From assembly GCA_039555135.1 (NCBI GenBank), contig CP114179.1:2976001-3040000 (forward strand): a stretch of DNA of 64,000 nucleotides. The letters run 5' to 3'. The notes beneath the pieces were generated by a model, which was not told the DNA's origin, ran no database searches, and worked only from the letters and a program-made list of their open reading frames with translations. The DNA is from Phycisphaeraceae bacterium D3-23 (GTDB lineage: Bacteria; Planctomycetota; Phycisphaerae; Phycisphaerales; Phycisphaeraceae). Shown here piece after piece: positions 21,408-22,870 of the stretch; position 1 is the first letter of the stretch; each line of letters opens with the position of its first letter. The position numbers and the translations under genes were made by a program.

Positions 21408-21540
21408 CTCACGCAAAGATGCAAAGACGCGGAGAGGGACACAACAGGACTACCCGCAGCCGGTCATGACGCGGCCATGCCTCCCAGTCGCCTCGTGCGC
21501 TGCTCAAACTTACTTTGCGCCTTTGCGTCTTTGCGTGAGG
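21408..21540. repeat. Inverted repeat CTCACGCAAAGA...TCTTTGCGTGAG
   Basis: The left arm (21408-21432) reads TCTCACGCAAAGATGCAAAG then ACGCG. The right arm (21515-21540) reads TTTGCGCCTTTGCGTCTTTG then CGTGAG. Each arm is made of reiterated GCAAAGA words. It lies between the permease and nadA and begins a few bases after the permease stop. Confidence 0.85.
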
Positions 21541-21589: not shown

Positions 21590-22870
21590 ATGCTTTGGCA
21601 GCCCGCGATCCCCGATGAATACACCCAGCTCAACGACGAGCAGCTCGATGCGCGCATCGCCGCGCGCAAGCAAGAACTCGGCAGCGACCTCGTCATCCTC
21701 GGCCACCACTACCAGCAGGACGACGTGATCGCCTTCGCCGACTTCACGGGCGACTCGTTCAAGCTCTCGCAGCTCGCGGCCGAGCAGGTGAAGAAAAATA
21801 ATGCGAAGTACGTGATCTTCGCGGGCGTCCACTTCATGGCCGAGACGGCCGACATCCTGACCGACGACGGCGTGGCCGTGTTGCTGCCCGACCTGGGCGC
21901 GGGCTGCTCGATGGCGGACATGGCCGACTACGAGCAGACGGTCGAGTGTTGGGAGCAGTTGGAGGAAGTGCTGGGAAGGGGCCAAGGGGCTAAGGGGCCA
22001 AGTGACAAGGCAACAGAGTTAGGGGCACGGTACTCGACCCCCCGGCCCCTCGACCCCTCGGCCCCTTCTGCCTACCGCGTCATCCCCATCTGCTATATGA
22101 ACTCCAGCGCCGCGATCAAGGCCTTCTGCGGGATGCACGGCGGCGCGGTGTGTACCTCGTCCAACTGCGACGCGATCTTCGACTGGGCCTTGGCCGGGGG
22201 CGACACCCCGCTCGAAGACGGCGAGCAGGTGAAGATTCTGTTCCTGCCCGACCAGCACCTGGGCCGCAACACCGGCGCGGCCGCGGGGTTTGATCCCGTC
22301 ACGCAGATGTGCCTGTGGGACCCCAAGAAAGACCTCGGCGGCAACGACGAGCAGCAGATTTTGGACAGCACGTTCATCCTGTGGAAGGGCCACTGCTCGG
22401 TGCACAAGCTGTTCCGCCCGGAGCATGTGGATGAGGCCCGTGCCGAGTGGCCTGATGTGACGGTGATCGCGCACCCCGAGTGCTGCTACGAGCTTTGTCA
22501 GAAGGCCGACATGACCGGCAGCACCGAGGGCATTATCCAGGCCATCGAGTCCGCCGAGCCCGGAACGAGGTGGGCGATCGCGACGGAGGTGCACCTGGTG
22601 AATCGCCTCGTGAACGAAGCGAAGACGCGCGGCGTCGAGGCCCGCATCCTGTCGCAGTGCCAGTGCCTGTGTACGACGATGTACCGCATCGACCGCCCGC
22701 ACATGCTCTGGCTGATGGACAACCTGGTGGAGGGTAAAGTCCTCAACCAGATCAGCGTCCACCCCGAGGCCAAGAAGCACGCGCTGGTCGCGCTCAACCG
22801 CATGCTCGATATCACCGCGAAGGCAAAGGTCAACGCGGTGAAAACGATCGACCGCGAAGCGACGGCGTAG
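21590..22870 (+). CDS. nadA: Quinolinate synthase NadA with in-frame insert
   Basis: 4Fe-4S enzyme that condenses iminoaspartate with DHAP to quinolinate for NAD synthesis. Seen: VILGHHYQQDDVIAFADFTGDS, GVHFMAETADIL, LLPDLGAGCSMAD (Cys106), YMNSSAAIKAFCG, CTSSNCDAI, FLPDQHLGRNTG, HPECCYELC and ILSQCQCLCTTMYRI. These supply the cluster Cys ligands. Start at ATG 21590 with CAGGAG 6 bases upstream. At 426 residues it is longer than usual. Residues ~129-161, rich in Gly, Pro, Lys and Ser and encoded by 21972-22073, interrupt the segment before VIPICYMNSS. The DNA of that insert is itself an inverted repeat of AAGGGGCC words. The rest of the enzyme looks intact. nadB and nadC are not in the window. 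Confidence 0.95.
   Translation: MLWQPAIPDEYTQLNDEQLDARIAARKQELGSDLVILGHHYQQDDVIAFADFTGDSFKLSQLAAEQVKKNNAKYVIFAGVHFMAETADILTDDGVAVLLPDLGAGCSMADMADYEQTVECWEQLEEVLGRGQGAKGPSDKATELGARYSTPRPLDPSAPSAYRVIPICYMNSSAAIKAFCGMHGGAVCTSSNCDAIFDWALAGGDTPLEDGEQVKILFLPDQHLGRNTGAAAGFDPVTQMCLWDPKKDLGGNDEQQILDSTFILWKGHCSVHKLFRPEHVDEARAEWPDVTVIAHPECCYELCQKADMTGSTEGIIQAIESAEPGTRWAIATEVHLVNRLVNEAKTRGVEARILSQCQCLCTTMYRIDRPHMLWLMDNLVEGKVLNQISVHPEAKKHALVALNRMLDITAKAKVNAVKTIDREATA
21972..22073. repeat. Inverted repeat AAGGGGCC inserted in frame in nadA
   Basis: The left arm (21975-22001) reads GAAGGGGCCAAGGGGCTAAG then GGGCCA. The right arm (22042-22068) reads CCGGCCCCTCGACCCCTCGG then CCCCTTC. About 102 bp, i.e. 34 codons without a stop, so the nadA frame is kept. 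Confidence 0.8.

Follow-up and report, generated by a model that had tools for sequence, protein, structure and literature searches.

The window, a 64,000-nucleotide stretch of DNA, carries nadA, the gene for quinolinate synthase, on its plus strand at 21590-22870, as identified by NCBIfam NadA models, by matches to NadA entries of the PDB and by an alignment of 50 orthologues. The open reading frame encodes 435 aa from 21563 or 426 aa from an ATG at 21590, and the latter start is backed by an MLWQP motif conserved in the 50 orthologues. The original prediction, that residues 129-161 are coded by an in-frame inverted repeat within an otherwise intact enzyme, is borne out when residues are counted from this ATG. 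The arms of the repeat occupy 21975-21999 and 22044-22068, the frame is free of stop codons across the whole insert, and the NadA models match on either side of it. The Fe-S ligand cysteines, C106, C269 and C357/359/361, are invariant in the 50-orthologue alignment and intact here, as had also been claimed.

The insert (21974-22069, plus strand) encodes RGQGAKGPSDKATELGARYSTPRPLDPSAPS and is a palindromic element of about 95 bases, belonging to a family built on the octamer AAGGGGCC. Alignment of 20 copies resolves its left arm (21975-21999, plus strand) into the tandem octamers AAGGGGCC AAGGGGCT AAGGGGCC. There follow the core AAGTGACAAGGCA and a variable loop (22000-22043, plus strand), the same core recurring in other copies as well as in the insert that the relative G022 has in its nadA, and then the right arm (22044-22068, plus strand), in which an inverted-repeat search and the alignment of copies define the reverse-complement octamers GGCCCCTC GACCCCTC GGCCCCTT. 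The arms, 25 nt each and 44 nt apart, are 84% complementary. The element ends, GGAAGGGG...CCCCTTC, are devoid of a GTAG/CGTC tetranucleotide tag, and an Rfam search with the element gave no match, including none to a ribozyme. Folded as RNA, the hairpin reaches -54.2 kcal/mol (z = -2.33), 3 of 200 shuffles folding as well, and taken alone it is improbable only to a moderate degree; a chance origin is ruled out because the same sequence recurs across the genome. Shortly upstream of nadA lies a second, different palindrome, with octamer arms ACGCAAAG/ATGCAAAG at 21408-21434 and 21513-21539 of the window, for which arm-length matches occur at about 12 other places in the genome.

Within NadA, the insert falls between the helix that follows GCSMADMA and the strand leading to CYMNSS, a place that corresponds by alignment to the loop preceding VVLYVNS in the PDB relatives. 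The GCSM-to-YMN spacing ranges from 28 to 56 residues among readable GTDB orthologues, and the three congeners for which a nadA match was obtained have an empty site and a short loop (e.g. WEQVQEVFAANSFRGRVIPICYMNSS in G002). Since this place varies in length among orthologues and since three other lineages hold different palindromes there, it was concluded that it is probably a tolerant loop, not the active site, the alignment also pointing to a surface location. The proposal that a functional NadA may tolerate the insert therefore gains support from sequence comparison with the congeners, the orthologues and the PDB relatives. The opposite view, that the segment is conserved in distant orthologues, finds no conserved counterpart in 80 GTDB sequences, and the comparisons support a recent in-frame insertion as the likely origin of the segment.

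What the original prediction missed, while correct about the insert itself, is that the nadA copy is one of about 36, many of them in other housekeeping genes. With a 116-bp nadA segment as query, blastn returned 57 matches in the genome, and a covariance model built from 20 element copies located the family at 36 places at a cut-off of E<=1e-3. These dispersed copies, about 86-109 nt long, have the octamer, the core and loop-proximal sequence in common: the left arm is a tandem run of three to four octamers (AAGGGGCC and its A/G and C/T variants) closed by AAGTG, and after a loop that varies in length CACT(T/C) leads into the complementary octamers. The same genome contains a second octamer type, AAGTGGCC, and a third, AAGACGCC. 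Terminal inverted repeats are present, as they are in MITEs; TA ends and a parent transposon were sought for the elements and not found, and no target-site duplication is definable, the loop sequence at empty sites differing between congeners. Copying through the hairpin in recent times is not proved, because covariation between the arms shows no excess over between-copy shuffles.

At least 16 copies lie in frame within 15 genes of this genome identified by hmmscan, which was applied to copies with long, high-GC3 frames spanning the element. The host genes encode NadA, PriA (two insertions), MutS, RuvB, Tgt, RarA, an SNF2 helicase, ValRS, acetate-CoA ligase (acsA), QueG, LeuRS, PurL, GltB, ATP synthase gamma (atpG) and HscA. 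The element is stop-free and frame-preserving in all 16 identified intact cases; in RuvB, for instance, NCBIfam matches at residues 11-206 and 245-362 flank an insert at 208-242. Besides NadA, the congeners are without the insert in AcsA, PurL, LeuRS, RarA, Tgt, AtpG and SNF2, at the second PriA site and at the N-terminus of ValRS, and these empty sites establish that insertion took place. In G002, the RuvB and QueG sites are occupied as well, with QueG octamers of AAGGGG there and AAGTGG here, and the first PriA site seems to contain the decayed remnant of half a copy. Four more copies are in three genes that are GNAT-like, though weakly identified, and the remaining copies are mostly intergenic, frequently only a few bases from where a gene ends. 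The GNAT-like genes (L196, L211 and L215, with two inserts of this octamer family in L211) are apparently related and have apparently received repeated insertions near the same place. A further copy, at G000:C1 989764 (L190, about 2765-2866), is in a gene whose motifs suggest miaA. Two compensating frame breaks accompany it, the first at a GC run upstream and the second in a C7 run where the element ends, and they may reflect assembly error or real inactivation.

ValRS of this genome (G000:C1 1598302-1601727, minus strand; L200:3-3428:-) also contains, in frame at residues ~467-645, a complete REP-associated tyrosine transposase (RAYT) that keeps the HUH motif DHVH and is flanked by hairpin repeats of its own. 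Counting this one, at least 10 genomes of the order have a RAYT in the same ValRS loop (also L242, L243 and L299-L308), and the site is empty in the three congeners. When three of the embedded RAYTs were compared, they matched each other at 47-59% and free-standing RAYTs at no more than 46%. At residues ~828-862 the same ValRS has a further insert, TTSRDREGADPGGEENKLAGPLPDGRGSS, which looks like a member of another coding palindrome family.

The gene-borne copies are biased in both orientation and frame. By leave-one-out scoring, 20 of 21 point the same way with respect to their gene, and the codon phase of the right arm, scorable in 19 copies, is the first in 16, the second in three and the third in none; the first PriA copy, which was unscored, is in the first phase when read by eye. 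The favoured frame encodes peptides of the form RGQGAKGPS...QHSAPRPLDPSAPS or, for the AAGTGG type, SGQVAKWSS...HSATRPLDHSATS. Its hydrophobic fraction is the lowest of the six frames, 0.10 where the other five have 0.17-0.32, a difference that points to possible selection on the peptide. Stop codons were rejected as the sole cause of the bias because other frames are also open in about half of the gene-borne copies. Because the unit of the arms measures 8 nt, or 7 nt in one relative, and so is not a multiple of 3, the arms run through all three codon phases whatever the phase of insertion. Arms of AAGGGGCC or AAGTGGCC are stop-free in every forward frame, a property that would mostly be expected anyway in a GC-rich genome, where most random octamers also lack a stop.

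The same architecture is found in relatives, built from other units: AAGTGGCC in G030, AAGGCACC and AAGGGACC in G010, GAGGGACC and AAGCCATC types in G027 and G022, and 7-mer arms in G029. A generic pattern, three repeats of RAGNNNYC followed by RAG, occurs in 21 of 61 relatives, and the reversed pattern, used as a control, gave counts of zero or near zero in nearly all of these 21 genomes; a phylum-wide pattern search gave matches in 29 of 294 genomes, many of those outside the order being plain tandem repeats. Certain loops are occupied more than once. The nadA loop is filled in four lineages (G000, the genome studied here, G027, G022 and L127), the QueG loop in three (G000, G002 and G030), the CarB loop in two (8-mers in G030, 7-mers in G029), the SNF2 loop in G000 and G030, and the RuvB loop in G000 and G002. 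For nadA and CarB, independent landing would be the simplest reading of the sequences, because the elements differ between lineages; where G000 and G002 share an occupied RuvB or QueG loop, inheritance and independent landing are equally possible. A broader view, which is tentative and somewhat doubtful, is that the Phycisphaerales harbor a superfamily of octamer- and 7-mer-armed palindromes adapted to intragenic life, with a unit that is not a multiple of 3 and arms open in any phase. From one species to the next the octamer sequence would be replaced, with architecture and preferred loops staying the same, and the mobiliser would be a new hairpin-copying system.

Together, these observations argue that the nadA insert is very probably a protein-coding palindrome: a mobile hairpin element, small and non-autonomous, that entered the gene after the species had split from its congeners. 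Copies would spread as folded DNA or RNA hairpins via a factor acting in trans, and most landings in genes would be lost. Those that survive within genes would be the ones that are in frame and stop-free and that add a hydrophilic peptide, rich in Gly, Pro, Ser, Ala and Gln, to a surface loop; NadA would be translated through the element and retain its activity. An adaptive role for the elements finds no support, their sites being too scattered and too little conserved. With respect to the trans-acting factor, the element might be REP/REPIN-like and owe its mobility to a RAYT encoded in the same genome, given that RAYTs mobilise hairpins and are common (46 of 61 genomes, with five matches in this one) and that intragenic REPs are known in other bacteria (PMC3733652). 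However, the element is without a GTAG or CGTC tag, the hairpin flanking the ValRS-embedded RAYT copy is another one, GGCACAGGCATCCTGCCTGTG, and G026 combines 33 octamer-pattern matches with no RAYT match. This origin is considered unlikely, and the octamer-rich, RAYT-negative G026 led to the rejection of RAYT as a necessary mobiliser.

Other explanations were also considered. The hairpin could be kept as a regulator of host mRNA, acting on stability or translation pausing, and its stable RNA fold of -54.2 kcal/mol and the location of some copies a few bases from gene ends are in keeping with such a role; yet most sites are unconserved between congeners, the host genes belong to no common pathway, and there is neither arm covariation nor an Rfam match, which leaves a regulatory function very improbable. 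That conserved genes are interrupted and their remainder intact is what an intron- or intein-like intervening sequence, removed from RNA or protein, would produce. The stop-free, frame-preserving state of the segment in all 16 identified intact cases speaks against removal, as do the lack of an Rfam ribozyme match and a length of ~32 aa, too short for an intein, so that there is scarcely any probability in this explanation. Local duplication or slippage inside nadA would readily generate tandem octamers, but it cannot produce an inverted arm and is already refuted by the ~36 dispersed copies with a common octamer, core and loop-proximal sequence; its probability is negligible.

The most familiar protein-coding palindromes are those of Rickettsia and Wolbachia, bacteria with reduced intracellular genomes. 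If the nadA insert is indeed a mobile coding palindrome, a planctomycete genome of 4.6 Mb and those of its relatives have arrived at the same outcome; the architecture is different here, essential genes are among the hosts, and different elements have struck some loops more than once. Two questions thereby become testable, namely how frequently working enzymes gain loops from mobile DNA and by what agent such hairpins are copied.

In the literature searched, no report was found of these elements in Phycisphaerales, nor of octamer palindromes in Planctomycetes, and three known systems provide the closest comparisons. Bacterial MITEs (ERIC, Correia, RUP; PMC2229807, PMC10969869) are likewise short and non-autonomous, with inverted repeats and occasional ORF fusions, but in the element described here the repeats fill the whole length and not only the ends, no TA ends or parent transposon were found, and no target duplication could be defined. 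The GTAG/CGTC REPs and REPINs are also small palindromes, some of them intragenic, with DNA repair and tRNA synthetase genes among their hosts and sometimes the same site occupied in related species, including one shared site in Xanthomonas recB (PMC3733652). Unlike these, the element is longer (~95 bp), has octamer arms and no GTAG/CGTC tag, and is found in a genome with no detectable RAYT; it is not a GTAG/CGTC REP. The Rickettsia palindromic elements (RPEs; Ogata 2000, 2002) and their Wolbachia equivalents are palindromes of ~100-150 bp that are both intergenic and intragenic and lie in frame in many conserved genes, and translation of an RPE as an extra peptide has been shown for the Rickettsia gmk product (PMC10969869, PMC2229807). 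The planctomycete element is similarly a multi-copy palindrome of comparable size (~86-109 nt, 36 places) with intergenic and intragenic copies, and it too interrupts conserved genes without loss of frame (16 copies, 15 genes) and has a preferred reading frame (20 of 21 copies in orientation, 16 of 19 in phase). It differs from RPEs in belonging to another phylum and in having arms of tandem octamers that change from genome to genome and have no fixed frame. By analogy, then, it appears to be a protein-coding palindromic element that works as the Rickettsia RPEs do. Because it has no REP tag, and because the resemblance to RPEs that is seen is one of working, it is not classed as an RPE and is filed instead as a new variety of coding palindrome.
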